Source: Odontocerum albicorne (lineage: Eukaryota; Arthropoda; Insecta; Trichoptera; Odontoceridae). From it: 64,000 bases of DNA. How positions within the stretch are numbered: the first letter of the stretch is position 1; each line of letters begins with the position of its first letter. The translations under genes and the position numbers were made by a program. The stretch covers positions 19,866,189 to 19,930,188 of the forward strand of contig OX463852.1 in the NCBI GenBank assembly GCA_949825065.1, in the 5' to 3' direction. Below, in pieces: positions 842-46,469 of this stretch. Under the pieces are notes generated by a model. The model worked only from the letters and a program-made list of their open reading frames with translations, had not been told where the DNA came from and ran no database searches.

Positions 842-2285
842 TTAATAAGCACATGGAACACAAGGAGAAGGTTGAGAGCATGGTGTTGGAGGAGACGGTG
901 CTGGGCATTGGGGTGGGGGGCATGGTGGGGGTTGTGGTGGAGCACATGGCTGTGGGCACGGTGCAGGAGGAGGTGGTGGTGGGCATGGAGGAGGTGGTGG
1001 TGGGCATGGTGGAGGTGGTGGTCGGCATGGTGGAGGTGGTGGTAGAGCACATGGTTGTTGGCATGGTGCCGGAGGAGGTGGTGGTAGAGCGCATGGCTGT
1101 GGACATGTTGCTGGAGGAGGGGAGGGTTGGCATGGTGGAGGTGGTGGAGAACATGGATGTGGGCACGGTGCTGGAGGAGGTGGTAGTGGGCATGGTAGAG
1201 GTGGGGGTGGAGCACATGGCTGTGGGCACAGTGCTGGAGGAAGTGGTGGTGGACATGGTGGAGGTGGTAGTGGACATGGTGGAGGTGGTGGTGGAGCACA
1301 TGGTTGTGGGCACGGTGCTGGATGTGGTGGGCATGATGGTGGTGATGGTGGAGCACATGGCTGTGAGCATGGTACTGGAGATGGTGGTGCTGGGCATGGT
1401 GGAGGAGCACATGCTTGTGGATATGGTATGCAAGCTGGTTGTACACTCTGAAAGTAGAAAATTAAACCAACAAATCAATGAAAAAAGATCTCCCATCAAT
1501 TTTAATCTTTAACACAAAAATATTCATATAATATATTAATGGTTTGGGTAGGATAAAAACATTGATTAAAGTGATATAGATCACACAACAGGACGGCATT
1601 TCTAGACAGTGGTTAACCACATTTTCTTCACTAAACAGTGTCTTCAAGTAAACTGGTACAATGCTACAATTGTTTTTTTTCCCGTTAATCTCTAATACTG
1701 TGCAAATTTACTAAATTAAACTTTATAATGGGTATGTATAGGGAAAGAATACCGTATACAGATAGTTAGGGTTTATTACTATCCGCGGTTTAACTCATCC
1801 ACTGTGAGTTCTTCGAAAGTATATCTCATAAATAAGAAGGGACAATTGTATACTTTGACTGTGCCAAAATATTAGCAACAAGACGGGATATAACATAATG
1901 ACGCTCAGCTGTGATCAATTGTGGAGCATGTGCCTAAATTTATACTAAGTGTTAAGGCAGAAATGCAAAATTGACTATTCCCTCAGAAGGAAATATTGTT
2001 ATACATAATGGTTTACAAACTTATAAAGACATCGGTTATTTTGGAATTGACTCTCAACTTATCTTATTTAAATTGGACCTGCATTAATAGCAAATTAGGA
2101 GAACAAAATAAAGCAAAAGAGTTCTTTATTATTTATTCTTGTTGTAAACTACCACCCTTAAATGGCACCAATTAGCTATATTTGAATTATTTTCTGTGAA
2201 GGAAAATGAAAAATTTGGAAACTCTTACCTGCAGAACCAACAGAACTAGAAAACCAGAAAGACCAAACATTGTCTTGGAAGCCAT
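842..2285 (-). CDS. CP1, secreted Cys/Pro-rich protein, two exons
   Basis: Exon 1 (2285-2229) encodes a hydrophobic signal peptide, MASKTMFGLSGFLVLLVLQ, and ends at CAG before a GTAAG donor. Exon 2 (1447-842) follows a TTTCAG acceptor, is read in phase 0 from SVQPACIPYPQACAPPPC to CVPCAY and TAA, and has no internal stop when I translate it in full, giving about 220 residues. Apart from the signal peptide the protein is nearly all Pro, Cys, Ala and Gln, with Cys every 3-8 residues. It has no charged catalytic residues and no enzyme domain, so a disulfide-linked extracellular structural role is inferred from composition. An ATG directly upstream (2288-2286) would add one Met; I chose the start by alignment with paralogs. 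The polyadenylation signal is at 808-803. The gene is head-to-head with CP2, and its intron carries a Tigger-like tail. Confidence 0.85.
1683..1850 (+). mobile_element. Tigger-like (pogo) 3' tail remnant in CP1 intron
   Basis: The segment contains ACTATCCGCGGTTTAACTC followed by a CATCCACTG block and ends in AAGAAGGGACAA. From memory this order of motifs resembles the 3' terminal region of pogo/Tigger elements. Related copies occur in the introns of CP5 and CP8 and at 44.5-44.7 kb. The three intronic copies sit in equivalent positions, so this insertion predates duplication of those genes. Confidence 0.5.
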
Positions 2286-2303
2286 CATCTTCTGGGACAG
2301 CAC

Positions 2304-2337
2304 TGATGCCAGGCTCCACTCTGCATCACTATTTATA
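2304..2337 (-). promoter_or_regulatory. CP1 core promoter
   Basis: On the minus strand TATAAATA (2337-2330) precedes a TCAGT arthropod-type initiator with its A at 2304. The leader to the ATG is only about 19 nt, shorter than the 27 nt of most paralogs because about 11 bases before the start are missing. Confidence 0.75.
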
Positions 2338-2382
2338 CCTAACACAGATACACAATGAGCACTCATCTTCATTACTGTTGAT

Positions 2383-2395
2383 TCACGTTTGATAA
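2383..2395 (+). promoter_or_regulatory. TCACGT + TGATAA motif pair
   Basis: TCACGT (2383-2388) is followed at once by TGATAA (2390-2395), about 80-90 bp upstream of the CP1 start. The same pair occurs upstream of CP5 and, inverted, CP8. GATA-factor sites and a TCACGT element are known in silkmoth chorion promoters; that they act here is inference. Confidence 0.45.
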
Positions 2396-2848
2396 TGTGT
2401 ATGCCATTTATCAATGTAACTTGAAGGCATGAAATTTTTACTTCATTAATTTTTTTGCTGGCACTGACATTCTATATTTAATTTAACACTTCAGAGATAA
2501 GACATTTCTCTAATTTAAATGTGTCACAGAAACTGCAGAAGACTTTATACGAACATGGCTCATGCATTAAGATTTTACCTTCATGACAATAGTCTATTTG
2601 ATATTTTCCTGATTAAAGCCATTTATATTTTATCTGGATCACATAATTTTAGATAATAACTATTATTTATAAAAATTATGATTTTCTGCAAATATTTTGT
2701 TTATTTGTACACATAAATCTAATTTCTTTCACACAACAAATAAAAAGATTTTGATTTTATTTATCTCAAATTTCTAATAGAAAACTTGCTTTCAAAGTAA
2801 TTTTGTATTGTACCATACTAAAAAATGTATGCATTCTCAAGAAAAAAG

Positions 2849-2901
2849 TGATAAGTGTTAAGTAGTATGATAAGTGTTTGTAGCAATGTGAAGTATAAAT
2901 A
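2849..2901 (+). promoter_or_regulatory. CP2 proximal promoter
   Basis: Two TGATAA motifs (2849-2854, 2868-2873) precede TATAAATA (2894-2901). The TCAGT initiator has its A at 2927, 27 nt before the ATG. The GTGATAAGTGTT block is shared with CP6 and CP7 and differs from the CP1/CP5/CP8 type. Confidence 0.7.
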
Positions 2902-2953: not shown

Positions 2954-3992
2954 ATGGCTTCCAAGACAATGTTTGGACTTTCTGGTCTTCTGGTTCTACT
3001 GGTTGTGCAGGTAGGAAGTTTTTCATCATTTTAGGTATTTTTTTATGATAAAAATATTAATATTACTTCGAGGCAACAAAATATTTTTGCCAAAAAATCT
3101 ATCAACATTCAGAAAGACAGAATATTTTTCTTCTTTCAGCATACTTTTCTTTCTTCTTTAATAGTGACAAAGCAGTAATAAGTAAGAAAACTTGTATTGT
3201 TAACCGTCCAAACCACTGTCATAGTTTTTTCAATCTGGGTTACTTTTATTTTCGTTGCTTCCATATCAGCAATGGGTTTGGAATTGGATTAATATTTTTT
3301 CAGTCATTTCAATATTGGTCTTTATATTATTTCAGAGTGTACGAACAGCTTGCATACCATGCCCACAACCTTGTGCTTCTCCACCATGCCCACCGCCACA
3401 ACCTTGTGCCCTACTACCACCTCCACCATGTCCAGCACCTTGTGCTCCACCACCATGCCCAGCGCCACAGCCTTGTGCTCCACCACCACCTCCACCATGC
3501 CCAGCACCACAGCCTTGTGCTCCACCTCCACCATGCCCAGCACCACAGCCTTGTGCTCCACCACCACCTCCACCATGTCCAGCACCTTGTGCTCCACCAC
3601 CACCTCCACCATGCCCAGCACCACAGCCTTGTGCTCCACCACCCCCTCCACCATGTCCAGAACCACAGCCTTGTGCTCCACCACCACCTCCACCATGCCC
3701 AGCACCACAACCTTGTGCTCCACAGTCACCATGCACAGCACCGCTTCCACCATGCCCTCAACATCAACCTTGTGCTCTTTCATGTCCACCTCCCCCTCCT
3801 CCATGCCCACCACCACCTCCACCTTGTCCACCACCACAACCTTGTGCTCCACCACCTCCCCCATGCCTACCACCATCACAACCTTGCGCTCAACCACCAC
3901 CTCCACCATGCCCTGCACCACAGTCTTGTGCTCCACCATGTCCAGCACCACCACCACCATGCTCTCCATGTTGTGTTCCGTATGCTTGTTAA
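2954..3992 (+). CDS. CP2, secreted Cys/Pro-rich protein, two exons
   Basis: Exon 1 (2954-3010) encodes MASKTMFGLSGLLVLLVVQ and ends CAG before GTAGG. Exon 2 (3336-3992) follows a TTTCAG acceptor and is read in phase 0 to TAA, for a precursor of 237 residues. It begins SVRTACIPCPQPCASPPC, so the usual SVQP is altered to SVRT. The body is repeats of CAPPPPPPCPAPQPC spaced by CPAPC, and the C-terminus is CVPYAC. The open frame runs back into the intron to 3255, but the ATG there is inside the intron and lacks a promoter; the start in exon 1 is chosen because TATA box, initiator and signal peptide match all paralogs. AATAAA lies at 4016-4021. Head-to-head partner of CP1. Function inferred from composition only. 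Confidence 0.85.
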
Positions 3993-8335: not shown

Positions 8336-8895
8336 AAACTACAAAATATTTTTTTCATTAAATATCGACAATGGATTAAATATGCAATATTATAATACTT
8401 TAATTCTTATTTTACAACAAATTTTAAAAAAATTCAATACAAATTTTAATGATACAAAAAAAATGTTAACCTTAAATTGCAAAGGGTTAAAGATACCGTT
8501 GTAAATTGAGAAATTATCTCTCATACTTCATTGTTTTTAATTTATGCTTTAAAAATGAAGCAAAATGTTGACAAAATACAATTAGTATGGTCAGCAAAAT
8601 GAATTGCATAAAATTTCGTATCATCAGGTAGTATAATATGTGTATATTATTATGAAACATAATTAATCTGAAATGTAAAAAAGCCATGGATTATATTATG
8701 AAAATTTGATAGCAAAGGAAAATGCTGATTTGAAAGTAAAGGGAGGTTGATAACTAAATGAAATATGCATAGTCGGTAAAATAAATATGTTCTTAATTCC
8801 ATTCCAACAGGTTATAGAGATAAACTGCATACACATTATTATATGTGAGTGAACAGCAATGAAAATATAGAAACTTGTTGTGTATCAGTGTTAGG
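8336..8895. repeat. CP3 proximal upstream DNA, shared with CP4
   Basis: Similar in order and sequence to 12,680-13,155 and to 180-770. It contains AAATTTCGTATCATCAGGT in all three copies. No coding region. Confidence 0.5.
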
Positions 8896-8955: not shown

Positions 8956-9788
8956 ATGGCTTCCAAGACAATGGTTGTACTTTTTAGTCTTCTAGTTCTG
9001 ATGGTTGTGCAGGTAGGAATTTGAATTTTTTTCATAATTTTGGGTAATTTGTTATGATAAAAAATATTTATATTACCTCGATGCAACAAAATATTATTGT
9101 AAAAAAAATCTTTCAACGTTCAGAAATAGTTGACAAGCAGTACTTTTGGATTACTTTTCATTTAAAAAAAATTTTATACCCATAATAGGTTTGGAATTTA
9201 ATTAAGATTTTTCAATCATTTCAATACATGGTCTTTTTCTTATTTCAGAGTGTACAACCAGCTTGCATACCATGCCCACAACCTTGTGCTCCTCCACCTC
9301 CTCCACCATGCCCACAACCACAACCTTGTGCTCCACCATGCCCACCACCACCTCCACCATGCCCGCCTCCTCCTCCACCATGCCCGCCACCGCCTTCAAC
9401 ATGCGCTCCCCCACTACCTCCTCCATGCCCACCACCGCCTCCACCATGCCCACAACCCCAACCTTGTGCTCCATTATGCCCACAACCACAACCTTGTGCT
9501 CTATTATGCCCACTACCCCCTCCACCATGCCAACCACCGCCTTCACCATGCGCTCCCCCACCACCTCCTCCATGCCCACCACCGCCTCCACCATGCCCAC
9601 AACCCCAACCTTGTGCTCCATTATGCCCACCACCGCCTCCACCATGCCCACAACCACAACCTTGTGCTCCACTATGCCCACCACCCCCTCCACCATGCCC
9701 ACCACCACCTCCACCTTGTCCATCACCACTGCCTTGTGCTCCACCATGCGCACCACCACCTCCACCTTGTGTTCCATGTGCTTGTTAA
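8956..9788 (+). CDS. CP3, secreted Cys/Pro-rich protein, two exons
   Basis: Exon 1 (8956-9012) encodes MASKTMVVLFSLLVLMVVQ; its hydrophobic core is more diverged than in other members. Exon 2 (9249-9788) follows the family's shortest intron (236 bp). The precursor is 198 residues. I count 31 Cys in the 179 residues of exon 2, many exactly seven residues apart (CPPPPPPC), with four PCPQPQPC-type segments and several short CAPLC or CALLC links. The end is CVPCAC. No AATAAA is evident; AATAAG at about 9815 may serve. Start chosen on promoter distance and exon-1 alignment. It stands in the same orientation as CP4, with duplicated upstream DNA. Confidence 0.85.
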
Positions 9789-13215: not shown

Positions 13216-14217
13216 ATGGCTTCCAAGACAATGTTTGAACTTTCTGGCCTTCTGGTTCTGTTGGTTGTGCAGGTAGGAATTTAAAACTATTTAATAATAT
13301 CAGGATTTATTTTTTATGATAAAAATATAAATAATATCACCTAGAGTCAACAAAATATTATAGTTAAAAATACTGTCAATATTCAGAAAGAGTTGACACA
13401 ATATTTTTTTCTTCTTTGAGTAAAATTTTCATTCCTCTTTAAGACTAACTAAGCAGTAAAAAGTTTTAAAACTTGTGTTGTTAACTGTCCAAACCACTGT
13501 CCTAGTTATTTTTAACCTGGGTTACTATTCTATTGCATTTTTTTACATAAACAATGGGTTTGGAGTTGGATTAAGATTTTTTTAACCATTTCAATACATG
13601 ATTTTTACTTATTTCAGAGTGTACAACCAGCTTGCATACCATGCCCACAACCTTGTGCTCCTCCCCCTCCTCCACCATGCCCACCACCACAACCTTGTGC
13701 TCTACCACCACCTCCATCATGCCCACCACCGTGTCCACCGCCGCCTCCCCCTTGCCCACCACCACAACCTTGTGCTCCACCACTGCCTCCACCATGTCCA
13801 TCACCACAACCTTGTGCTCCACTACCCCCTCCACCATGCCCACCACCATGCCCACCACCATGCCCACCACCATGCCCACCACCATGCCCACCACCATGCC
13901 CACCACCATGTCCCCCACCGTGCCCACAACCTTGCACTCCTCCACCCCCACCACCATGCCCACCACCATGCCCGCCCCCATGTCCGCCTCCATGTTCTCC
14001 ACCATGCCCTCTACCATGCCTCCCACCATGCCCACCCCCATGCCCACAACCTTGTGCTCCTTCACCCCCTCCACCATGCCCACCCCCGCCTCCACCATGC
14101 CCACAAACTTGTGCTCCCCCACCCCCTCCACCATGCCCCCCACCATGCGCACAACCTTGTGCTCCTCCACCATGCCCACCATCAACTCCAACATCTTGTG
14201 CTCCGTGCGCTTGTTAA
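13216..14217 (+). CDS. CP4, secreted Cys/Pro-rich protein with CPPP run
   Basis: Exon 1 (13216-13272) encodes MASKTMFELSGLLVLLVVQ, with Glu in place of the usual Gly. Exon 2 (13618-14217) follows a TTTCAG acceptor; translated codon by codon it is open from SVQPACIPCPQPCAPPPP to CAPCAC and TAA, for 218 residues in all. Its middle is distinctive: a run of consecutive CPPP tetrapeptides (about 13,837-13,925) in place of the seven-residue spacing of CP3, so Cys occurs every four residues. The same DNA is fully open in the other two sense frames, which I reject as genes. AATAAA is at 14243-14248. Same orientation as CP3. Confidence 0.85.
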
Positions 14218-20313: not shown

Positions 20314-22025
20314 TTAATAAGCACATGGAACACAAGGAGAAAGTTTAGAGCATGGTGATGCAGGAGGAGGTGCTGGGCATGGTGGTGGTGCTGGGCATGG
20401 TGGTGGTGGTGGGCATGGTGGTGGAGCACATAGCTGTGGGCACGGTGCAGGAGGTGGTGGTGGTGGGCATGGAGTAGGCGGTGGTGGGCATGGTGGAGGT
20501 GGTGGTGGAGCACATGGTTGTTGGCACGGTGCTGGAGGAGGTGGTGGTGGGCATGGTTGAGGTGGTGGTGGAGCACATGGTTGTTGGCACAGTGCTGGAG
20601 GAGGTGGTGGTGGGCATGGTGGAGGTGGTGGTGGAGCACATGGTTGTTGGCACGGTGCTGGAGGAGGTGGTGGTGGGCATGGTTGAGGTGGTGGTGGAGC
20701 ACATGGATGTTGGCACAGTGCTGGAGGAGGTGGTGGTGGGCATGGTGGAGGTGGAGCACATGGCTGTGGGCACGGTGCTGGAGATGGTGGTGGTGGGCAT
20801 GGTGGAGGTGGTGGTGGAGCACATGGCTGTGAGCATGGTGCTGGAGGAGGTGGTGGTGGGCATGGTGGAGGGGGTGGGGGTGCACATGGCTGTGCGCACG
20901 GTGCTGGAGGAGGTGGTGGTGGGCATGGTGGAGGTGGAGGTGGTGGTGGAGCACATGGTTGTGGGCACGGTGCTGGAGGGGGTGGGCATGGTAGAGGTGG
21001 TGGGGGAGCACATGGCTGTGGGCATGGTACTGAAGGTGGTGGTGCTGGGCATGGTGAAGGAGCACATGCTTGTAGATATGGTATACAAGCTGGTTGTACA
21101 CTCTGAAAGTAGAAAATTAAACCAACAAATGTAAAAAAGATTTTCAATCAATTTTGTTCTTGAACACAAAATTACTTAACATATAAATTCAATGTTTATA
21201 TCCTTATGAAAGGATAAAAACGTTGATTAAAGTGGTGTGGATCACACAATTCTAGACAGCTGTTAACCACATTTTCTTCACTAAACAGTGTTCTTCAAGT
21301 AAACTAGTACAGTGCTATAATTGTTTTATTTTATATTTAGTTTTTTTTGTTAATCTCCAATACTGCGCTCATTTAATAAATTAAACTTTATAATGGGTAT
21401 GTATGTATAGGAAAAAAAATACAGTATACAGATAGTCAGGGTTTATTACTATCCGCGGTTTAACTCATCCACTGGGAGTTCTTCGAAAGTATATCTCATA
21501 AATAAGAAGGGACAACTGTGTCCTTTGACTGTAGTAAGATATTAGCCACAAGACAGGATTTAATGACGCTCAGTTGTGATCAATTGCAGTTGAGATGCAA
21601 TTAATCACAACTATGTGTCTATTGTGATGTTTTTTATCATCGCATTATAATGTGTGGAGCATGTGCCTAAATTTATACTACGCATTAAGACAGAAATGCA
21701 AAATTGACCATTCCCTCGGAAGGCAATATTCTTATACGAGAACATAATGGTTTACAAAGTTATAAAGACATCGGTTATTTTGGAATTGACTCTCAACTTA
21801 CCTTATTTAAATTGGATCTGAATGAATAGAAAATAAGGAGTACAAAATAGAGCAAAAGCGTTCTATATTATGTATTCTTGTTGTAAACTACCACCCATAT
21901 AAATAGCACCAATTAGTTATATTTGAATTATTTTCAAAGAAAGGAAAATATAAATTTGGAAACCTTACATGTACAACCAACAGAACTAGAAGACCAGAAA
22001 GTCCAAACATTGTCTTAGAAGCCAT
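20314..22025 (-). CDS. CP5, secreted Cys/Pro-rich protein, two exons
   Basis: Exon 1 (22025-21969) encodes MASKTMFGLSGLLVLLVVH. The last codon is CAT where all close paralogs have CAG, so the donor reads CAT-GTAAGG; the splice should still work but is unusual. Exon 2 (21102-20314) starts SVQPACIPYLQACAPSPC and is the longest of the near-identical set: 262 residues of CAPPPPPPCPPPPPPAPCPQ-like repeats ending CVPCAY. The precursor is 281 residues. Its palindrome mirror CP8 has 214 residues in exon 2, so repeat number has changed since the inversion-duplication. Polyadenylation signal at 20280-20275. Head-to-head with CP6. Role by analogy with CP1. Confidence 0.85.
21345..21525 (+). mobile_element. 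Tigger-like 3' tail in CP5 intron
   Basis: Same segment as in the CP1 intron, including ACTATCCGCGGTTTAACTC and GGTATGTATGTATAGG. Confidence 0.5.
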
Positions 22026-22051: not shown

Positions 22052-22085
22052 TGATGCCAGGCTCCACTCTGCATCACTATTTATA
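22052..22085 (-). promoter_or_regulatory. CP5 core promoter
   Basis: TATAAATA (22085-22078) and TCAGT initiator with A at 22052, 27 nt before the ATG. Confidence 0.75.
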
Positions 22086-22130
22086 CCTCACACAGATACA
22101 CAACAAGCACTCATCTTCATTACTGTTGAT

Positions 22131-22143
22131 TCACGTTTGATAA
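22131..22143 (+). promoter_or_regulatory. TCACGT + TGATAA motif pair (CP5)
   Basis: TCACGT at 22131-22136 and TGATAA at 22138-22143, same spacing to the start as in CP1. Confidence 0.45.
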
Positions 22144-22586
22144 TGTGTATGCCATTTATCAATGTAACTTGAAGGTACGAAATTTTTACTCTATGAATTT
22201 TTTTGCTGATACTGACATATATTTAATTAGGCACTTCAGAGATAAGACATTTGTCTAATTTAAATGAGTCACAGAAACTGCAGAAGACTAAATATGAACA
22301 TGGCTCATTCATTAAGATTTTACCTACATGACTATAGTTTATTTGATATTTTGCTGATTAAAGCCATTTATATTTTATCTGGATCACATAATTTTAAATT
22401 ATAACAATTATTCAGTAAAACTATGACTTTCTGCAAAACGTTTGCTTATTTATTAACATAAACCTAATTATACAATAAATAAAAAGATTTCAATTTTATT
22501 TATCTCAAATTTCTAATAAAAAATTGCCTGTCAAAATAATTTTGTATTGTACTATATTAAAAAAATGTATGCATTATAAAAAAAAG

Positions 22587-22653
22587 TGATAAGTGTTCGT
22601 AGTATAGCAATGTGAAGTATAAATAGTGTTGTAGAGTGGAGCCTAGCATCAGT
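22587..22653 (+). promoter_or_regulatory. CP6 promoter
   Basis: TGATAA at 22587-22592 in a GTGATAAGTGTT block, TATAAATA at 22618-22625, TCAGT initiator with A at 22651. Confidence 0.7.
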
Positions 22654-26187: not shown

Positions 26188-26380
26188 CAACCTTGTGTTA
26201 CACCACCAGCTTCACAGCCTTGTGCTCCACCACCGTCACCACCACAGCCTTGTGCTCCTCCACCACCTCCACCATGCCCACCACCACAGCCTCGTGCTCC
26301 TCCACTACCACCGCCATGCCCACCCCCATCACCACAGCCTTGTGGTCCTCTTCCACCTCCACCATGCCCACCACCAACCT
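26188..26380 (+). pseudogene. Orphan CP exon-2 fragment in palindrome spacer
   Basis: In one frame it reads QPCVTPPASQPCAPPPSPPQ and onward through CPPPQPRAPPLPPPC to CPPPTYF, clearly CP exon 2 without either end. One Cys is already Arg (QPRAP). It is cut off six bases before the inner edge of the right palindrome arm, so its truncation may mark a rearrangement breakpoint. There is no first exon and no stop codon of the family. Confidence 0.7.
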
Positions 26381-28324: not shown

Positions 28325-29784
28325 TTAACAAGCACATGGAACACAGGGAGAAGGTTGAGAGCATGGTGCTGGAGGGAGTGGCGGGGAGCATGGTGAAGGA
28401 GCACATGGTTGTGGACATGGTGCTGGGCAAGGTGGCGGTGGGCAAGGCAGAGCACATGGCTGTGGGCACGGTGCTGGAGGAGGTGGTGGAGGGCATGGTG
28501 GAGCTGGTGGTAGAGCACATGGCTGTGGGCATGGTGCTGGAGGAGGTGGTGGTGGGCATGGTGGAGGTGGTGGTGGAGCGCATGGCTGTGGGCACGGAGC
28601 TGGAGGAGGTGGTGGTGGAGTACATGGTTGTGGGCACGGTGCTGGAGGAGGTGGTGGTGGGCATGGTGGAGGTGTTGGTGGAACACATGGCTGTGGGCAG
28701 GGTGCTGGAGGTGGTGGTGGTGGGCATGGTGGAGGGGGTAGCGGAGCACATGGCTGTGGGCATGGTACTGGAGGAGGTGGTGGTGGGCATGGTGGAGGTG
28801 GAGCACATGGCTGTTGGTAGAATATACAAGCTGGTTGCACACTCTGAAATAAGAAAAATAAGTTTTTTTTATTGCAAAATAAATCTTCTATAATTTCCCA
28901 ACTCTTATAAACTTACTCGTATGTGTCTCGAAAGACGAAAAATACAATGGTTAAAAAGGTTCAAACCACAGTTTTAAGCAATTGTCCACGTGCTTATGCC
29001 AACCAACATTTAGCAGATTGGCATAACGTGTAAATAAGATGTGTGTATATACAATAGTATTCTACTCCTTTATAATGATCAAATGATAGGTAGCCAGACA
29101 ACACTTTGTTGCCTTATGATTTTTAATTTTTTTATTTAACACATGACAAGAAATATACATAATTTGCGATAAAACAACAGGTATTTTAATTCGGACACAC
29201 CATTTTAATGGATCTGTGTTTGTTGCCTTTCATTTGTTGTGTCCCCAGTAAACTAGGCTTTTGCCTGTATCTCACTGAGGACATTAAATATGAAAAAATA
29301 AATCGAACTTCTTTCACATTCTTGATTATATAAAACCCAGTTGCACATTCTCATCAACCTGACAAACAGTGACACTCAATTACATATGTATACATCACGC
29401 GAAATCAAACTCCTCACACTTCACTCCAGACAGACCAAAACATCCACAATATACCGCACACAAACGTAAAACAAACAAAAAAAATACATATATTTATAAA
29501 TATAAAACAACAAAAAACACCACACTCAAGAGCTCACGCAAATAATAACTTATGATAAATAAAAATAAGAAAATAGTTAGTCAATAGACATGACACCCCA
29601 ACATGAAAGCAAAATATAACTATACTTCATTCAATAATTATGAATACTTGTCTAACTCTGAAAGTTTATACAAGTATCATTATTTTTTTTTAAATAATAA
29701 AAATGAAAAAAATGTTAATATTCTCACCTGCACAACCAGCAGAACTAGGAGACTAGAAAGTCCAACCATTGTCTTAGAAGTCAT
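28325..29784 (-). CDS. CP7, secreted Cys/Pro-rich protein, two exons
   Basis: Exon 1 (29784-29728) encodes MTSKTMVGLSSLLVLLVVQ with a GTGAG donor. Exon 2 (28843-28325) reads SVQPACIFYQQPCAPPPP through to CSQPSPCVPCAC and TAA, 172 residues, precursor 191. It is the intact mirror of CP6: it keeps the first Cys, has Gln where CP6 has the stop, and lacks CP6's 237-bp duplication. The IFYQQPC start separates CP6/CP7 from the IPYPQ/IPCPQ group. Polyadenylation signal at 28291-28286. Head-to-head with CP8. Confidence 0.85.
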
Positions 29785-29810: not shown

Positions 29811-29875
29811 TGATGCTAGGCTCCACTCTACAACACTATTTATACTTCACATTGGTATACTACAAACACTTATCA
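29811..29875 (-). promoter_or_regulatory. CP7 promoter
   Basis: TGATAA (29875-29870), TATAAATA (29844-29837) and TCAGT initiator with A at 29811. Confidence 0.7.
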
Positions 29876-30303
29876 CTTTGTTTTGATAATGCATTCATTT
29901 TTTTAATATAGTACAACACAAAATTATTAGTATAGGCAATTTTTTTATTACAAATTTGAGATAAAGATAATTAAAATCTTTTTATTTATTGTGTGATTAG
30001 GTTTATGTCTATAAATAAGCAAAAGTTTTGCAGAAAGTCATAATTTTACTGAATAATAGTTATAATCTCAAATTATGTGATCCAGATAAAATATAAATGA
30101 CTTTAATCAGCAAAATATCAAATAGATTATTGTCATGTGGGTAAAATCTTAATGCATAAGCCATCTTCAAATAAAGTTTTCTGCAGGTTCTGTGACTCAT
30201 TTAAATTAGAAAAATGTCTTATCTCTGAAGTGCCTAATTAAATATAATGTCAGTGTCAGCAAAAAAATTCATAGAGTAAAAATTTAATACCTTCAAGTTA
30301 TAT

Positions 30304-30334
30304 TGATAAATGGCATACACATTATCAAACGTGA
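30304..30334 (+). promoter_or_regulatory. GATA and TCACGT motifs upstream of CP8
   Basis: TGATAA at 30304-30309, its inverse TTATCA at 30322-30327 and ACGTGA (inverse of TCACGT) at 30329-30334. This is the mirror of the CP5 motif pair. Confidence 0.45.
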
Positions 30335-30379
30335 ATCAACAGTAATGAAGATGAGTGCTTGTTGTGTATCTGTGTGAGG

Positions 30380-30415
30380 TATAAATAGTGACGCAGAGTG
30401 AAGCCTGGCATCAGT
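30380..30415 (+). promoter_or_regulatory. CP8 core promoter
   Basis: TATAAATA at 30380-30387 and TCAGT with A at 30413, 27 nt before the ATG. Confidence 0.75.
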
Positions 30416-30439: not shown

Positions 30440-31998
30440 ATGGCTTCCAAGACAATGTTTGGACTTTCTGGTGTTTTAGTTCTGTTGGTTGTGCAGGTAA
30501 GAGTTTCCAAATTTTTCATTTTTCTTCATAGAAAATAATTCAAATGTAACTAATTGGTGCCATTTATATGGGTGGTATAATAAATAATAAAGAACACTTT
30601 TGCTTTATTTTGTTCTCCTTATTTTCTATTAATTCGGATCCAATTTAAATAAGATAAGTTGAGAGTAAATACCAAAATCATCATAATAAGTTTGTAAACC
30701 ATTATGTATAAGAATATTGCCTTCTGAGGGAATGGTCAATTTTGCATTTCTGTCTTAACGCTTAGTATAAATTTAAGCACATGCTCCACACATTGTAATG
30801 TGATGTTAAAAAACATCATAATAGACACTTAGTTGTGATTAATTGCATCTCAACTGCAATTGATCACAACTGAGCGTCATTATATCCTGTCTTGTGGCTA
30901 ATATCTTACTACAGTCAAAGGACACAGTTGTCCCTTCTTATTTATGAGATATACTTTCAAAGAACTCCCAGTGGATGAGTTAAACCGCGGATAGTAATAA
31001 ACCCTAACTATCTGTATATTGTATTTTTTTTCCTATGCATACATACCCATTATAAAGTTTAATTTATTAAATGAGTGCAGTATTAGAGATTAACAAAAAA
31101 AAAAACTAAATATAAAATAAAACAATTATAGCACTGTACTAGTTTACTTGAAGAACACTGTTTAATGAAGAAAATGTGGTCAACAGCTGTCTAGAAATGC
31201 CATCCTATTGTGTGATCCACACCACTTTAATCAATGTTTTTATCCTTTCGTAAGGGTATAAACATTGAATTTATATGTTAAGTAATTTTGTGTTCAAGAT
31301 CAAATTGATTGAAAATCTTTTTTATATTTGTTGGTTTCATTTTCTACTTTCAGAGTGTACAACCAGCTTGTATACCATATCCACAAGCATGTGCTCTTCC
31401 ACCATGCCTAGTACCACCACCTTCAGTACCATGCCCACAGCCATGTGCTCCACCACCACCTCCACCATGCCCACCACCTCCGGAACCGTGCCCACAACCA
31501 TGTGCTCCACCACCACCTCCACCACCACCTCCACCTCCACCATGCCCACCACCACCTCCTCCAGCACCGTGCCCACAGCCATGTGCTCCCCCACCCCCTC
31601 CACCATGCCCACCACCACCTCCTCCAGCACCATGCCCACAGCCATGTGCTCCACCACCACCTCCACCATGCCCACCACCACCATCTCCAGCACCGTGCCC
31701 ACAGCCATGTGCTCCACCACCACCTCCACCATGTCCACCACCACCTCCTCCAGCACTGTGCCCACAACCATGTGCTCCACCACCACCTCCACCATGCCCA
31801 CCACCACCTTCTCCAGCACCGTGTCCACAACCATGTGCTCCACCACCTCCACCATGCCTACCACCACCTCTTCCTGCACCGTGCCCACAGCCATGTGCTC
31901 CACCACCACCCCCACCATGCCCACCACCACCATGCCCTGCACCACCTCCTCCATCACCATGCTCTCAACCTTCTCCTTGTGTTCCATGTGCTTATTAA
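30440..31998 (+). CDS. CP8, secreted Cys/Pro-rich protein, two exons
   Basis: Exon 1 (30440-30496) encodes MASKTMFGLSGVLVLLVVQ with a CAG-GTAAG donor, the ancestral form of the CP5 donor. Exon 2 (31354-31998) begins SVQPACIPYPQACALPPC and ends CVPCAY, TAA; precursor 233 residues. Modules are CAPPPPPPCPPPPPPAPCPQ with a 12-Pro stretch near the N-terminus. AATAAA at 32032-32037. It mirrors CP5 and its 857-bp intron carries the same Tigger-like tail, inverted. Confidence 0.85.
30925..31100 (-). mobile_element. Tigger-like 3' tail in CP8 intron
   Basis: Inverted copy of the CP5 intronic segment, so its orientation relative to the gene is the same. Confidence 0.5.
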
Positions 31999-32416: not shown

Positions 32417-32452
32417 TATAAATAGTGGTGCAGAGCGAAGTCTAGCATCAGT
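32417..32452 (+). promoter_or_regulatory. CP9 core promoter
   Basis: TATAAATA at 32417-32424 and TCAGT with A at 32450, 27 nt before the ATG. The upstream block (AACAGAGATGAAGATGAATG) follows the CP1/CP5/CP8 type. Confidence 0.7.
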
Positions 32453-32476
32453 GCTGTCTTAGCTTCTGTACAGGAG

Positions 32477-32536
32477 ATGGCTTCCATGACAATGATAGGG
32501 CTTTCTGGTCTTCGAGTAGTTCTGTTGGTGGTACAG
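32477..32536 (+). pseudogene. CP9, orphan first exon
   Basis: Promoter, leader and a 60-bp exon encoding MASMTMIGLSGLRVVLLVVQ with a CAG-GTAGG donor are all present; one codon longer than paralogs and with Arg inside the hydrophobic core. No plus-strand second exon follows: the next CP exon 2 on this strand belongs to CP12, 9 kb away. The nearest exon-2-like DNA is inverted (CP10). It may be a gene that lost its second exon by inversion or deletion. 32,537-33,094 otherwise shows nothing. Confidence 0.65.
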
Positions 32537-33094
32537 GTAGGAATTAATATTGTTTTATTTATCTAGTTATCTTTGTTACCAATGGACTTTTGTCATGAAT
32601 TTGTTTTGCTACTTTGTAAAATGTTAAGATTATCGCCTTGAGGTTCTCTTTACATATTGTAAGATAAATTTCATAATTATTGTCCATACACACATTTGTA
32701 TATAAATTTTATTCCAATATGTCACCTAATAACTTCGTTCCTATATAAACATCTCATTTCTAGTAACTATAATTAATACAATTAATGAATTATTTAATAA
32801 GAAATTGTCCATCTAATGTTTGTATAATTTAGTAATCAAACAGTATACCTTGAAACATATAATAATTTTTCTACGATACATCAAAATTAACGAAACTGTT
32901 CACTTTAAGTGAATGTAGCAGGAATATTTCTCAAAAGTCTCTAACATTATAATAGATACACTAAACATTTTTTTTTATTCTACTTTTACTTATCATGGTA
33001 AAAACAGAAGTAAAAGTGTTGTTGATTCTGCAGTGATAACAATTTATATTTCAAATTTGTTTCTTCACGATCTCTACATTTTCAAGTTGTCTCC

Positions 33095-33829
33095 TTAATA
33101 AGCACACGGAACACACAGCCAAGGACGTGAGGGGAGTTGTAAGCACTTTATGTGAGGTACCAGTGGAGCCAATAGTTGTGGGCATAGCATGGGAGGAGGT
33201 GTTGTTGGATATGGTGGAGGTGTTGTTGTACATGGAGGTAGAGCACATGGTTATGAGCACCGCACAGGGGAGGTAGTGGTGTAGCACATAGTCAACCGTG
33301 CTCATAAAGGGCATTGAATGGTTGGGAGGAGGTGGTTTTGAGCACGGTGTAGGTGGTGGTGGAAGTGGTGATGGGCATGTTGAAGTTGTTAGTGAAGCAC
33401 ATGAGTGAGGGAGTGAAGTACATGAGTAAACAAGATGATTATACACTCTGGAATAAGAAAAAATAATATGAAATTATATTTCTTTTCCAATATTTGTTCA
33501 ATTTTATTTTATTAGATGATACATATTTCGGACAGAAAAAAATAAAACATACGGTTTTTCCGGGCAGCTGCTTACAAATCATAAAAATCAAAGTTCTGGG
33601 AAGTCATACAGCACCCAAAAAATGCATAATAAATATTACACGTTCCATTTATACAGATTGAAAAGTGAATATCAAATGTTAGTATTGGTTAATAATGAAT
33701 CATGTAAAAAGGGAGAAATTGTGAAAAGTATTGAAAGAGATGGTGTGAATTATAAATTATTAAGTGCAACTGTGTACGGAAACTGGGACAGCACTTATGC
33801 CAGATTCCACTATGCAACATTCTTTATAC
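33095..33829 (-). pseudogene. CP10 pseudogene with decayed exon 2 and promoter
   Basis: On the minus strand TTCCAG (33453-33448) precedes exon 2 (33447-33095), which still begins with the codons of SVQ, but Gln is a TAA stop, and ends CVPCAY, TAA. Its length, 353 bp, is not a multiple of three, and most Cys/Pro modules have become Thr/Ser/Leu-rich after frameshifts. About 33,829-33,772 matches the CP leader and initiator region (TGCTGTCCCAG kept; TCAGT now TAAGT). The signal-peptide codons are gone. The TATA box is split by two nested transposons. Confidence 0.75.
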
Positions 33830-34348
33830 CAGCGGTCGCCAAACTTTAGGACCTCACGGACCACTAAATTCATAATTTTAAATCCCGCGGACCATAGTAG
33901 GAAATTTCTTACATAATTTTTTCTTACATAAGAGGAGACATAATTTTTTATCATGGTAAGGGACGGGTTAATAAACAAAAATATATGCAAATTTCTGCGT
34001 AATGAAGGGAGTCGACGATATGTTTTAGGAATACATCCGTGTGCGGGGGCGTGGACAGAGAATAATATTACCTATAAAATATATAAAGAAGAGCCCCACT
34101 GTGAAACATTAGAAGAGTGCGCAACGAGGCAATAAGACAAAACATGTGCAATGCAGCTAGCTACACGTCTTACGAGATTGTCATGATTTCATGCATCTTG
34201 CATCGTTCATCCTTGCAAGTCACTTATTTTTCCGGGTTGGTTTGCTGTGGATTAAAAAATGCAAATAATGTCCACATTTCTCTGCGGACCAGTGAAATTT
34301 TCTCGTGGGCCACTGTTGGTCCGCAGACCACCACTTTGGCGACCAGTG
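33830..34348. mobile_element. hAT-like non-autonomous element, 519 bp
   Basis: Starts CAGCGGTCGCCAAACTT and ends with the inverse of CACTGGTCGCCAAAG. The 8-bp target is CTTTATAC on the left (33822-33829) and CTTTAT plus AC on the right once the nested piggyBac-like element is removed. No transposase. Confidence 0.75.
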
Positions 34349-37522: not shown

Positions 37523-39648
37523 TTAACAAGCACATGGAATACACGGAGATGGTTGACAGGGTTGAGGTTGTGGTTGACCACATGGTTGTGGGCATGGTGA
37601 TTGAGGAGGTGGTGGTGCACATGGTTGTGGACATGGTGGTGGAGGAGGTGGTAGTGGGCATGGTGGAGGTGGTGGTAGGCATGGTGGAGGTGGTTGTGCG
37701 CATGGTTGTGCGCATGGTTGTGGGCATGGTGGAGGTGGTGGTGGGCAAGGTTGTGGGCATGGTGGAGGTGGTTGTGCGCTTGGTTGTGGGCATAGTGGTG
37801 GTGGGCATGGAGGAGAGGGTGGTTCACATGGTGGAGGGGGTGGTGGACTTGGTTGTTGGCATGGTGAAGGTGGTGGTGTGAGTGGTTGTGGGCATGGTGG
37901 GGGTGGAGGTGGTGGCGGGCAAGGCAGAGGGGGTGGTGCACATGGTGGAGGTGATGTGGGGCATGGTTGTGGGCATGATGGAGGTGGTGGTGCGCTTGGT
38001 TGTGGGCATGGTGGAGATGGTGGTACGCATGGTGGAGGTGGTGGTGCGTATGGTGGAGGTTGTGGTGCGCATGGTGGAGGTGGTGATGGGCATGGTTGTG
38101 CGCATAGTTGGGGTGGAGGAGGGGGCGGAGGAGGTGGTGGAGGAGGTGGTGGAGGAGGTGGAGGAGGAGGTGGGGGAGGAGGTGGTTCGCATGGTTGTGG
38201 GCATGGTGGTGGTGGAGGTGGTGGGGGGCATAGTTGTGGGCATGGTGGAGGAGCACATGGTTGAGGATATGGTATACAAGCAGATTGTACACTCTGAAAG
38301 TAAAAAAACAATTAAAAAAAGGTTTACTATCGATTCTATTCTACTCTGTGATAATTTATTTGGAAAAAGGGGCACTAATGGAATTGGATATAGATGTAGT
38401 AGTACCAGGTTGAATGGCATCACTGTTGCAGGTATTCAATATTGTCATTAACAAAAGATTCAAGGACAATTTTAGAAAATAATATAACAATTGGCTATTA
38501 GCGGGAAATCACTCAACGACACCATCCTCCTTCAGTTTCCCTCTTAAGTGAATGGATTGTGAGAGTCTGACATAAAATTGAACCTGAATAAATCATATAT
38601 GACTTATAAATATTTGGCTTCCAACAATTTGGGTGGGACGGAAGACATCTTATGTGGAGATTCGATCAATTCTGAATGAACAGTTTGACCATTAGACAAA
38701 TTAATATTTGTAATACATTTAAACATCTTTAGTATTAATTATGTTCACTTTTTGTCAAAATATCTTAATGAAAAATCAATGGGCGGCATTAAATTTGATA
38801 TCGCATTATTTTTGGGCAAATGTTATTATTATTATTGAATGTCAGAGCTCTTGGTGACTATGGCAACTATTCAGTGTTTCTTAATGTTCACAAAAAAGGA
38901 TTATGATATTAAATTTTCAAATTCGCCTCACTTTTTCGTTTTATTAAAAAGTTTTATTAATTTTTAATATTGTATGTGTTGTAGAGTATTCATAGAAACT
39001 GTTGTAGGCAAATTTAGAAATTAAGTCATTGTTTAGTATAAAACAAAATACAATACAAAACTTTATTATTTATTGAGAAAGTTAGTAAGTCCTTGTGTCA
39101 AGATATGTACTATTCAAGTTAATGCATATTCAACTCAGGATACCATAAGATAATAATAACAATACATCAGAATTGGTTGAATTTCTTACTTAATTTGCAT
39201 TTAATATATGAACCATGTAGAGATAGAAAGCCTGTAATTAGGTTTTGAAATAAATTCAATCAGCTAACCGGAAGCACTTTGCTTTGAAAGGACTTTGAAG
39301 AAGTCGATAAATTGAGGTTTTGAAACAGAGAGTCAGAGACAAATTGTGATGGCAAAATCTGCTATGACCAAACATATGAATATAATATATGTAACATATA
39401 TGGAAAAATTGACCTTCTCAACACCAAAATTTATTAAAAATAAAAAATACAGAACTGAGAAAGCAGGCGTTATGTACTGCTTCTTGCAGTGAACCACTGA
39501 CTTTAAGTAGTTAACTTTAAGTAGTTAGTTGACTTTAACCAGTTACATTCAAACTATTTTCTAAGAGAAAAAAACATATTTTAATTCCTACCTGTACCAC
39601 CAACAATACCAAAAGACCAGAAAGTCCAAACATTGTCTTGGAAGCCAT
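37523..39648 (-). CDS. CP11, secreted Cys/Pro-rich protein with long poly-Pro run
   Basis: Exon 1 (39648-39592) encodes MASKTMFGLSGLLVLLVVQ, with GTACAG as the last codons. Exon 2 (38293-37523) reads SVQSACIPYPQPCAPPPC to CIPCAC and TAA, 256 residues; the precursor of 275 residues is the second longest after CP5. Near its N-terminus, after CPQPCE, is an uninterrupted run of more than 20 Pro, which breaks the usual Cys spacing. The rest has more Gln and Ser and many PCPQPC links. The 1,298-bp intron is the longest of the CP genes. TATA box is TATATAAT. Polyadenylation signal at 37491-37486. Head-to-head with CP12. Confidence 0.85.
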
Positions 39649-39674: not shown

Positions 39675-39709
39675 TGATGCTAGACTCCTCTCTGCACCAC
39701 TATTATATA
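39675..39709 (-). promoter_or_regulatory. CP11 core promoter
   Basis: TATATAAT-type TATA box (39709-39701) and TCAGT with A at 39675, 27 nt before the ATG. GAGATAAGTGCTT lies upstream. Confidence 0.7.
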
Positions 39710-40389
39710 CCTCACATTGCTACACCACAAGCACTTATCTCATTGCTTTTTACTCACATTTTAATATGTGTGCTATTTATCTGTACAACCTGACAATTTT
39801 GCTGAATTAACATTACATTTCATTTAATACTTCAGAGATAAGACATTTCTCTAATTTGAATGATTCACAAGAACTGTAGATTACATGATTTGAATGTGTC
39901 TCATACATTTAAGGTATTACCTATATGACGGTAGACAATTTGATATTTTCCTGATTGAAGTAGTTTATATTTTACGTAGATCATTTCACCTCTTTACACT
40001 ATAAAGATTTTACTTCATTTTTTAGATTTGCTTACAAATCATTTAATTACTTACCTTATATGTGTACTATTCACAGGAGTTGAACCTTCTCGTTTAATAT
40101 TTGAATCATTCAGAGGAATTGCAACTAACGTCACTTTTTTGCTAACTCAAGTATTATGATAATAATGTACGCATCTTATCACAAAGTTACATGGCTATAT
40201 TCAATTTGATATTTTGCTGAATGCTGTAATTTGTGTTTAATCTAAGACACAACATTTTCGAGAGTAAAATATTTTATAATTATTCGTTACATCACTTTTC
40301 TTTGATACTGTTATAAAATCTAATTACTGAAAATACCACAAAATGAACAAGTGTTAAGCAGAAAGTCTTATTGGTGTATCAGTGTGAGG

Positions 40390-40425
40390 TATAAATAGTG
40401 ATGCAGAGTGGAGCCTGGCATCAGT
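40390..40425 (+). promoter_or_regulatory. CP12 core promoter
   Basis: TATAAATA at 40390-40397 and TCAGT with A at 40423, 27 nt before the ATG. Confidence 0.75.
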
Positions 40426-40449: not shown

Positions 40450-42070
40450 ATGGCTTCCAAGACAATGTTTGGACTTTCTGGCCTTTTGGTTCTACTAGTT
40501 GTGCAGGTATAGGTTATAATTTTTTTCATTAATCTTGTTCTTTGGAAATTGTAATCAAATAAGCATTCAGAGTTGAGCAAGTATTTCCTTTCATTTGACA
40601 CACATTAATATATCTGAATTAGTGTTTTGAACATATTGAAGAGAATGGCTGGGAGACAATATTGTGTTGGGCCCCAGTAATCGAACCTTCATTTTTAGAC
40701 CCAAATATGTGTGTACTAACACCCAAATATGTACCCACTCCCGAGAGTGGGCACGGAACTCGCGATTAGTTTTTTAATGTGTTGGCAAAACTACTGATTG
40801 GCACGTGCAAATATTGTAACTATACAAACTTTTTTAACATGTTGGCACATTTTTTTTTATTGAATACCTTCGGGAATCGAACCCAAAACCCTCGGGTGGA
40901 AATCAAGAATCTTACCACTAGGCTATGTAGGTTGTCTATAAGTATTAATAATATGTTTTGAGGTTTTTATGGTTCTTTGTATCAGATGTTTAAGGTCTAA
41001 GGATTGTACTGTGTGGTTTGACTTATGATACCAATGTTTTGAAAACATTGCAGTTTTCATCTTCTCGGTTTGTTTGTATTCAAAATATCTGTATCATAGC
41101 CAAACCATATGGCACAACCCTTAAAATGTCCTTATACATCTTATACGAAGAACCACTAAAACCTCAAAACATATTATGAAAACTTGTAGATGACCTCCAA
41201 CCTCCTGTAGCCAAACCACACGTGGAAAGACATAAACATTGAGTAAAGGAATGAGGCTAGTTATATTTTGCTTTCATCTTGAAGTGACATGTCTATTGGT
41301 TTACTTTTTATATTTTTTGTGTAAATATCAGTTACTCAGAAAACGTAAATGAGACCATGGTTTTTTTTTACCATGATGTAGCCTTAGAGGACACATTATG
41401 CTAGAAGTTTTAAATTCATTAGACATTCAATTTCTTTTAACATACTATATGATAATTTTACTTATTTCAGAGCGTACAACCAGCTTGTATACCCTATTCA
41501 CACTCATGTGTTGCTACACCTCAACCTTGTGCTCCACCACCTCCTCCACCCCCTCCACCATGCTCACCACCCCCTCCAATACCACAACCTTGTGCTCCCT
41601 CACCACAACCATGTGCCCCAGCACCTCCTCCGCCATGCCCGCCACCACCTCCACCTCCTCAACCTTGTGCTCCACCATCACCTTCACCATGCCCACCCCC
41701 ACCTCCACCACCACAACCTTGTGCTCCACTACCACCTCCGCCATGTCCATCCCCACAACCATGTGCTCCACCACCTCTTCCACCGTGCCCACCACCACCA
41801 CCACCACCTCCACCACCACAATATTGTGCTCCACTACCACCTCCACCATGTCAAACACCGTGTCCCCCACCATGCCCACCACCACAACCTTGTGCTCCCC
41901 AACCACCTCCACCATGCCCATCACCAGAACCTTGTGCTCCCTCACCACCTCCACCATGTCCACCACCACCTCCACCGTGCCCACCACCACCACCACAACC
42001 ATGCCCTCAACCATGTGCTCCGCCACCATGTCAACCATGCCCACCACCATGTGTTCCCATTGCTTGCTAA
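40450..42070 (+). CDS. CP12, secreted Cys/Pro-rich protein, two exons
   Basis: Exon 1 (40450-40506) encodes MASKTMFGLSGLLVLLVVQ with a GTATAG donor. Exon 2 (41471-42070) follows a TTTCAG acceptor. Translated codon by codon it is open from SVQPACIPYSHSCVATPQPC to CPPPCVPIAC and TAA, 199 residues, so the precursor is 218. It is one of the more diverged members: more PPPPQPC than CPPPPPPC, a His near the start, one Tyr replacing Pro (PPPQYC), and CVPIAC at the end instead of CVPCAC. AATAAA at 42100-42105. The 964-bp intron holds a SINE-like segment (40,858-40,938) in which a tRNA-like head lies on the minus strand. Confidence 0.85.
40858..40938 (-). mobile_element. tRNA-derived SINE head in CP12 intron
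   Basis: Minus strand: CATAGCCTAGTGGTAAGA (A-box region) and GGTTTTGGGTTCGATTCCC (B box). It would not fold as a complete tRNA. Confidence 0.55.
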
Positions 42071-43919: not shown

Positions 43920-44136
43920 GATGACCCCATATCTTAGTTGGTCTAAGCCTGTCTTCCAGCCAAGGAGATTGCGGGTTGCATTGGACGTGTCCCCAGATTT
44001 TTAAAAAAGGGTTTCAGTCTGATTTTCACTTAAGGTCTCTTTAACGTATTTCTGATTGATTAGAAAAGATTGCCACAAGACAATAAATCCGACAGGTTTT
44101 AATGTATACAATCACAGTGAAATACAATACAATACA
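43920..44136 (+). mobile_element. tRNA-derived SINE
   Basis: Head with TTAGTTGGTCTAAGCC; the B-box position has GGGTTGCATTGG, mutated. Tail CAATACAATACAA. Same family as 34,803-35,025. Confidence 0.6.
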
Positions 44137-44329
44137 ACCTTTTCTTTACTGATTTCTAATAAATAGCAATAAGCAACCTAGAAATACAATACTTCTCCAA
44201 AACTCTGATTAAAATAATTATTTTTAAAACTGTTCAGAATATTTTTTTCAAGTATATTGCTAGGTTCCCCTATACATGCCCTATGATTTTAAATTATTGT
44301 ATAAATATAATCACATTTTTCTTTCAGCG

Positions 44330-44700
44330 TTTGAGTACAGTAGCCTTCCCTTATCTGCATTATTCACCTTACTTCATGCATCACATCATCAAAAGAAGAA
44401 GAGTGAGTAAAGTATAGTAAGAGATTTCGAAAGAGAATAAGAGAGAGACCACATTCACATAACTTTTATTACAGAACATTGTTAAAATTGTTCTAATTTA
44501 TCATTAGTTTTTATTGTTATTCTCTTACTGTTAAAATTATTAAATACAATTTTTAGAATCAATTCCTAAGTTACTAAATTAATTGTGTGTATATAGGAAA
44601 AAAAACATTGGATATATGGGGCTCAGTACTATCCATGATTTCAAGCATCCACTGGGTGTTTTGGAACATATCACCTGTGGATAAGGGGAACATAGCCATT
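44330..44700 (+). mobile_element. Tigger-like non-autonomous element
   Basis: Left end CAGTAGCCTTCCCTTATCTG and right end GGATAAGGGGAACAT are roughly inverted. The 3' part has CAGTACTATCCATGATTTC and a CATCCACTGGGTGTT block, like the intronic tails of CP1, CP5 and CP8. Confidence 0.5.
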
Positions 44701-45001
44701 TAGGCAAAATATTTTTAATAACTGGGATTTAATCATATTGTTAATTTTATTTTAACAAACTAAAAAAAAACCTTAACCAATTGCCAAGTAGAAATCATAC
44801 CTGGTAAAATTGTTTAACTAAATATACACCAACCAGACATGTAGTAATTAAAAAATATATGTGCAAAAAAACTGATATATTTGCAATTTAATTGTGAATT
44901 ACAATAAAATGAACCATCAGAGATACATTTTAAAATTTTCTCTGTCATAAAGTTTAATTTTACAAAAAAAAAATGTTTTCATAAAATTAGAGCTCTTCCA
45001 A

Positions 45002-46469
45002 TTAACAGGCACATGGGCATGGTGCAGGTGGGGGAGGAGCACAAGGTTGTGGTGGAGGACATGGTGGAGGTGGTGATGGAGTACAAGGTTGTGGTGGTGA
45101 GGGTGGGCATGGTGGAGATAGTGGCAGAGCACAAGGTTGTGGTGGTGAGCATGCTGGAGGTGGCGGGCATGGTGGAGGTGGTGGAGGGGGTGGAGGGGGT
45201 GGAGGGGGTGGGCATGGTGGAGGTGGTGGGCATGATGGAGGTGGTGGTGGGCATAGTGGAGGTGATGGTGGGGATGGTGGAGGTGGTGGTGGGCATGGTG
45301 GAGGTGGTGGGCATGGTGGAGGTGGTGGGCATGGTGGAGGCGGTGGTGGGCATAGTGGAGGTGTTGGTGGAGCACAAAGTTGGGGTGGTGGGCATGCTTG
45401 AGGTGGTGGTAGTGGACTTGCTGGAGGAGCACATGATTGTGATTGTCCACATGGAAGACAAACGGTTCGGATGCAGGCTGAATATGAACCCTGGAAATAA
45501 TTATTATTGGATTGTTTATGAAAAATATATTCGAATTTGTAAAACATAAAAAAATTTACAATATAAATAATTTTCTATATTACGAGTTTTATCCCTTAAA
45601 ATTGCTAACTGGTTGTGAATTGACGTGTATAATCTGTTTGAATGACGTATATAATCTGTTTCAAGCAGACAATGAAGAGCTTACAAACAAAGATCTGCTT
45701 AAAATATAAAAGCGAAATTCAAGAAACTGAAACTCCCATTCATTTACAGATAAGGGATGAAACATAGAATAAACATTCAAAATCTTGAAATTAATTTAAA
45801 TTCTTAAAAATCAAACATAGAGCTAGACAGTCAGTTACAATATGCTGCAGCTTATATGAAAATATATTTTATAAGGATAAAAAGAATTACTTGCAAGCAA
45901 ATGAGAATTGAAGTTTTTGTCAGAGAAAAGCAGTAAATAATGAAAATGTCTAGATAAACGGTTTTTTACTAATAATCTATCGAAGTATTTTATTTTTCCC
46001 CTAATTTTGTTTCATTTATAAAATTTATACATTATTATTATAGATTGTTTATTTTTACCAGGTCAAATATGGTTTTTGAGGATGTTTAATTTATAATAAT
46101 AATGTTATTGGGAAACATTTGACCCCTTTCAAGTGATGATTAGAAACAAATCAACCTGATTATAATCGGTGGCCATGTTTATTTATTTTATTTCTCTCAT
46201 GTCTAATATTCTATATAAAATATCCTATTTACTCAAAATATTTTTGTTAGTAATAAGTCCTGGCCTACTTATCAATGAGTTACCTACTTTTAATCCTCTA
46301 AGAAATTGTAAAAAACACATCGGGATACTTTTGATGCTTGGTTGAGCATCCTACCCAATTGTGAAGAAGATAAGCACGTGAAAGAAAAATGATAAGGTGT
46401 AAAGTCTCTTACCTGTAAGGCTAGTAAAAATAGAAGACATGACACTCCGAACTTCTTGAAAGAACCCAT
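45002..46469 (-). CDS. CP13, diverged Cys/Pro-rich secreted protein
   Basis: Exon 1 (46469-46413) encodes MGSFKKFGVSCLLFLLALQ: same length and phase as the family but a different signal peptide. Exon 2 (45490-45002) starts GSYSACIRTVCLPCGQSQSC, lacks the SVQPACIP start, then becomes CAPP/CPPPPPPC repeats with a run of about 14 Pro and ends APCPCAC, TAA. The precursor is 181 residues. The N-terminal charged residues and extra Cys suggest an older branch that links the amplified CP genes to the Gln/Pro gene next to it. No clear AATAAA. Head-to-head with the Gln/Pro gene at 47.5 kb. Confidence 0.8.

Follow-up and report, generated by a model that had tools for sequence, protein, structure and literature searches.

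A cluster of predicted cysteine- and proline-rich structural-protein genes whose head-to-head organization has a precedent in the silkmoth chorion locus

A 64,000-nucleotide stretch of contig OX463852.1 from Odontocerum albicorne (the window; position 1 is its first nucleotide) carries a family of two-exon genes that encode chains made almost entirely of cysteine, proline, alanine and glutamine. Promoter, splice and polyadenylation signals indicate that these cysteine- and proline-rich (C/P) loci are real genes. They are unusual and without match in the databases searched, and their organization, as predicted from the DNA, has a clear precedent in the silkmoth chorion locus. The locus, apparently one of insect structural-protein genes, probably grew largely through duplication of head-to-head pairs. 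Its product would be a matrix particular to this lineage and crosslinked by disulfides, with eggshell the likeliest material, a reading to which we give an even chance. The C/P family comprises ten intact two-exon genes (a, b, c, d, e, g, h, j, k and l), one truncated gene (f) and three relics (i, i2 and n); gene m is a Tyr/Gln-rich neighbor. A preliminary description had counted ten intact loci with precursors of 181-281 residues and at least four damaged ones, and reconstruction returned the same number and size range, with f, i, i2 and n as the damaged loci. The interval it gave, 842..46469, holds the C/P loci and leaves out gene m, the partner of l, and the description overlooked what proved to be the main clue, namely that five minus-strand genes each face a partner.

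Head-to-head pairs and the structure of their genes

All five intact minus-strand genes (a, e, g, j and l) face plus-strand genes (b, f, h, k and m). Gene a (842..2285; exon 1 2229-2285, exon 2 842-1447; 220 residues) and gene b (2954..3992; exon 1 2954-3010, exon 2 3336-3992; 237 residues) are separated by 669 bp from ATG to ATG. Gene e (20314..22025; exon 1 21969-22025, exon 2 20314-21102; 281 residues) faces gene f (22678..23925; exon 1 22678-22734, exon 2 from 23164) over 653 bp; f is truncated by a premature stop at 23841, beyond which its conserved tail (to 23925) continues in another frame. Genes g (28325..29784; exon 1 29728-29784, exon 2 28325-28843; 191 residues) and h (30440..31998; exon 1 30440-30496, exon 2 31354-31998; 233 residues) are 656 bp apart, and genes j (37523..39648; exon 1 39592-39648, exon 2 37523-38293; 275 residues) and k (40450..42070; exon 1 40450-40506, exon 2 41471-42070; 218 residues) 802 bp. 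A 66-bp tandem repeat in three copies (37062-37275) lies downstream of j.

In these four pairs both partners are C/P genes. The diverged member l (45002..46469; exon 1 46413-46469, MGSFKKFGVSCLLFLLALQ; exon 2 45002-45490; 181 residues) instead faces the Tyr/Gln-rich gene m (47486..50118; exon 1 47486-47536, MEKIYYIGVFISIIVTQ; exon 2 49441-50118; 242 residues) at a distance of 1017 bp. The m chain is rich in Cys, Pro, Gln and Tyr and has an Asn/Ser/Thr-rich C-terminal tail. Its exon 1, picked as the strongest of four candidates within 3 kb, ends in the donor CAG/GTAAGA, and a TATA-like site is present without a TCAGT initiator. Over the 12 gene models (f and m included, relics excluded), the pairing has p 0.027, a value that treats as independent pairs that are copies of one another.

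Among the four C/P pairs, comparison of the stretches that separate the two TATA boxes (inter-TATA regions) gives 88-92.5% identity for a/b, e/f and h/g with each other and 61-66% for these with j/k. Over roughly 1.8 kb, e/f and g/h are copies of each other in inverted orientation (91%). From these inverted copies and similar inter-TATA regions, we conclude that the cluster grew at least partly by the copying of pairs.

The two remaining intact genes, both unpaired, are on the plus strand: c (8956..9788; exon 1 8956-9012, exon 2 9249-9788; 198 residues) and d (13216..14217; exon 1 13216-13272, exon 2 13618-14217; 218 residues). Directly upstream of c lie nine copies of a 106-bp tandem repeat (7378-8336; 97% matches), with relatives near 97-198 and 12599-12692. 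Relic n (26190..26380, approximate ends; plus strand) is an exon-2 fragment in which neither promoter nor signal exon was recognized; it is adjoined, in inverted orientation, by a piece of the element that forms four copies of a 49-bp unit at 25203-25401 (100% matches). Relic i2 (32417..32536; plus strand) retains only a TATA box and a 60-nucleotide signal exon with its ATG at 32477, and no exon-2 start is recognizable on the plus strand before 41471. Relic i (33090..33830, low end approximate; minus strand) consists of a degraded exon 2 from 33447 downwards, whose third codon is a stop, and of a promoter remnant (33773-33830) that lacks the TCAGT initiator.

The C/P genes share a promoter-signal exon cassette that reads TATAAATA ... 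TCAGT ... MASKTM...VVQ. The TATA box with TCAGT occurs at 12 loci (the 11 two-exon C/P genes and relic i2), with three further matches in the window, and the first ATG lies 24 nucleotides past the match at 10 of the 12. In the full C/P genes, a 57-nucleotide exon 1 encodes MASKTMFGLSGLLVLLVVQ or close variants, with l clearly diverged; identity of this exon averages 88% across ten genes (f included, l excluded). It ends in phase 0 at a GT donor, which reads CAG/GT in every gene but e (CAT/GT). Exon 2 begins AGTGTACAACCAGC after a TTTCAG acceptor, and this start occurs eight times in the window at up to three mismatches versus none in 100 shuffles. All 12 gene models combine an exon 1 of 51-57 nucleotides with an exon 2 of 489-789 nucleotides. 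Joining the exons over introns of 236-1298 bp gives an unbroken frame from ATG to stop in 10 of the 11 two-exon C/P genes; their C-terminal ends are related (mostly CVPCAC or CVPCAY), and AATAAA follows 23-33 nucleotides past the stop in nine of the 11 (background 0.157 per 80 nucleotides; for f, counted from the stop of the conserved tail). Gene structure bears out the two-exon, secreted and amplified character given in the preliminary description.

Because the other sense frames of the C/P genes are also nearly free of stops, open frames alone are weak proof, and the coding case rests on the agreement in frame and strand of signal exon, splice phase, TATA/initiator and polyadenylation signal. 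All 54 gaps in the alignments of eight paralogue pairs are multiples of three, which is likewise weak evidence since the repeats consist of triplets. Antisense Gly/His-rich frames were rejected, as promoter, splice and polyadenylation signals are all oriented the opposite way.

Composition was counted from the first Cys onward in the ten intact chains. Pro, Cys, Gln and Ala together make up 84.7-92.0% of the mature chain, with 23-39 Cys (13.9-20.1%), 0-2 aromatic residues, 0-3 charged or His residues and at most one Gly; Lys occurs only in e, as a single residue. When f is added to the ten, successive Cys are spaced by 4-8 in 259 of 342 intervals (4 being the commonest, at 92 of 342), and Pro directly precedes the counted Cys in 292 of 342. 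These figures bear out the earlier account of chains almost wholly of Pro, Cys, Ala and Gln, with Cys every 4-8 residues and essentially no aromatic or charged residues. Since Tyr and Lys are almost absent, Cys is the only obvious crosslinking residue of the C/P chains. The signal peptide is called from the hydrophobic exon 1 rather than by a predictor.

Searches for relatives covered about 5.8 billion proteins. Residues 1-45 of gene k, run without a control, gave no homologue and no candidate with three words in common. A profile of five sequences (k, d, c, g and h) scored 7944 candidates, none at E <= 1. In a control at the same database size, this profile recovered 10 of the 11 C/P members at E 3e-41 to 2e-9, five of which are in the profile itself, and m at 0.077; l was not listed. 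The profile search would therefore have caught near relatives and missed members as diverged as l. Pfam returned no match for five of the 12 full-length models (E up to 10) or for the second exons of c, h and m (E up to 1), and a search of solved structures (PDB) with exon 2 of c, the sole exon tried, gave no hit at E <= 1. Six peptide motifs of the C/P chains were not found in any paper of the library searched; by title, literature on "cysteine- and proline-rich" proteins contained no insect shell family, and none of the matches listed was on caddisfly eggshell genes. As far as these searches reach, the family is not seen as already characterized at the protein level, in keeping with the preliminary view that no described family has this composition and layout; that view does not extend to the gene organization, which has its silkmoth counterpart.

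Comparison with the silkmoth chorion locus

Silkmoth chorion genes have an exon 1 of about 50 nucleotides and one large exon 2, and the locus contains 44 gene pairs. Most A/B genes form divergent pairs, each pair served by one shared promoter in which GATA and C/EBP sites occur, and pseudogenes are present; Hc inter-TATA regions are more than 90% identical, and the shell is crosslinked by high-cysteine proteins (PMC4639761). In Hyalophora the chorion is hardened via disulfides (PMC13409908).

The C/P locus resembles that of Bombyx mori, especially the HcA/HcB pairs, in its clustered divergent pairs, common promoter layout and GATA sites, in the tiny first coding exon followed by a single large second exon, and in high Cys, near-identical promoters and pseudogenes. 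The two-exon plan of lepidopteran chorion genes (a minor exon of about 50 nucleotides and a major exon) is found in 12 of 12 models, and five head-to-head pairs are predicted. In silkmoth, too, an intron interrupts the signal-peptide sequence just a few residues short of the cleavage site.

From position and sequence, we predict a promoter common to each pair. The five inter-TATA regions span 532-883 bp and hold 5-8 GATA-type sites each: eight in a/b (2337..2894), six in e/f (22085..22618), eight in g/h (29844..30380), five in j/k (39709..40390) and five between the l TATA box and the m TATA-like site (46526..47411). The background mean is 1.96 per 556-bp window, and none of 789 overlapping windows reaches eight. 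The excess over shuffles is clear in a/b (p 0.003), e/f (p 0.02) and g/h (0 of 300), which amounts to about one independent observation because these three promoters are mutual copies.

The proteins differ. The C/P chains have Pro instead of the Gly of silkmoth chorion; exon 2 is 489-789 nucleotides here versus 300-500 in silkmoth; and partners are alike in the four C/P pairs versus the silkmoth alpha/beta classes. With the layout the same and the protein not, we propose that the locus works like a chorion locus without being filed as a member of the chorion family.

Several observations weigh against reading the window as a chorion-like locus of functional gene pairs. Genes c and d lack a head-to-head partner, and relic i violates the pairing rule. 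The GATA excess is not significant in the longer j/k and l/m regions (p 0.16 and 0.36). C/EBP-type sites, an element of the silkmoth promoters, number 1, 1, 1, 4 and 4 in the five regions by the wider pattern, at least one in each and no denser than the background mean of 2.16, and 1, 0, 0, 3 and 2 by a narrower pattern. The conserved central alpha/beta domain of chorion was not found in the models scanned, and Gly is nearly absent; we take Pfam to contain a chorion model and the chorion domain to be Gly-rich. Diacylglycerol kinase, dihydrofolate reductase and antizyme, which neighbor the silkmoth locus, were not recognized by eye among 47 open reading frames of at least 55 residues between 50 and 64 kb. 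Insect cuticle genes, too, have short first exons. Finally, mismatches by codon position, pooled over four of the eight aligned paralogue pairs (e/h, f/g, a/e and b/c), number 85, 99 and 118 and do not differ significantly (p 0.066); by pair, a clear surplus of mismatches at the third position is seen in c/d, k/b, b/d and f/g but not in e/h or b/c.

Proposed material and its alternatives

Eggshell is the best-supported single tissue, at a strength of about one half, and chorion is favored because gene layout and shared GATA-site promoters match the silkmoth locus. Under this proposal, the partners of each pair would be activated in concert and strongly expressed in a single secretory epithelium, the ovarian follicle cells that would deposit the eggshell material. 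The signal peptide would be cleaved at a conserved A-C step, the chain secreted as a stiff poly-Pro II rod bearing 23-39 thiols, and oxidation would connect the rods through disulfides into a network that is insoluble. A second crosslinking chemistry could come from m, the Tyr/Gln-rich partner of l. The crosslinked extracellular material suggested in the preliminary description fits gene structure and composition, from which its role as a material is deduced.

More specifically, and only tentatively, we suggest that the locus is of chorion type and belongs to a caddisfly or other non-ditrysian amphiesmenopteran that kept the pair plan of moth eggshell genes, the Gly-Cys shell protein having been replaced by, or having arisen independently as, a near-pure Pro-Cys chain; the eggshell would then consist of thiol-studded polyproline rods. 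If so, the arrangement of moth eggshell loci, with paired genes on shared promoters, can accommodate a protein of different chemistry, the origin of chorion loci in the moth-caddisfly lineage becomes testable, and the chains offer a model from nature for a polyproline material crosslinked by disulfides and nearly free of other chemistry.

The same Cys crosslinking could serve another secreted structural material in a different tissue: the egg-mass jelly or egg glue of female glands, a larval silk coating, or cuticle. Composition and signal peptide suit any crosslinked secretion, and such secretions are prominent in caddisflies. Weighed against this, the Pfam scans found no chitin-binding domain, as in insect cuticular proteins, nor any other domain in exon 2 of c, h and m or in the five full-length models, and we know of no head-to-head, shared-promoter plan for silk or egg jelly. 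That plan, with GATA-bearing promoters, is documented for chorion (PMC4639761). We regard such a material as a plausible but less likely alternative to eggshell.

It is improbable that these are dying or noncoding repeat loci, in which CCA-rich expansions sit on an old promoter-signal exon cassette and yield little protein. Three relics, one truncated copy, the nearly open alternative frames and the weak codon-position test fit this reading, but the frames kept across introns, the related C-termini and the recurrent polyadenylation signal argue against it. Clustered secreted defense proteins are more improbable still, for although Pro-rich antimicrobial peptides are, by literature titles, a known invertebrate class, these are usually cationic, whereas the chains here have next to no charge, reach 181-281 residues and carry Cys evenly distributed rather than in a compact scaffold.

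Returning to a crosslinked matrix, two systems outside insects offer partial parallels. Mammalian small proline-rich (SPRR) proteins are a clustered family with Pro/Cys/Gln repeats that builds the crosslinked cornified-envelope barrier; they are cytosolic proteins that lack a signal peptide, and transglutaminase crosslinks them via Gln and Lys. The C/P genes share the repeats, the clustering and, as proposed, the crosslinked barrier, but their chains carry a signal exon and, e aside, no Lys. Cnidarian minicollagens (PMC7981951) resemble the C/P chains in signal peptide and polyproline stretches and, as proposed here, in disulfide-linked Cys and a tough wall material. The C/P chains have the signal peptide and polyproline with Cys but neither a Gly-X-Y collagen core nor separate Cys-rich end domains, and their Cys are distributed along the entire chain.

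Other features of the window

Beyond the cluster, a long open frame at 56870-58525 on the minus strand marks a ZAD-type C2H2 zinc-finger gene, 66% identical to a contig protein. Among the matches listed (best 120 of 1754), the named ones with coverage of at least 95% belong to two moths and a caddisfly and, further down, to a cockroach. In a tree of 16 of these 120, the gene joins contig proteins first and Arctopsyche (caddisfly) next, at a modest 81/81, apart from Achroia (moth), a placement that is no more than suggestive of a caddisfly; Arctopsyche, Plutella and Ischnura form long branches.

Two transposase-like features lie within the cluster. At 15526-16436 (plus strand), CENP-B N-terminal and DDE_1 pieces in separate open reading frames probably represent a broken pogo/Tigger-type transposase, and a transposase-like open reading frame at 18625-19479 (minus strand), presumably mariner-like, matches the DUF4817 helix-turn-helix.

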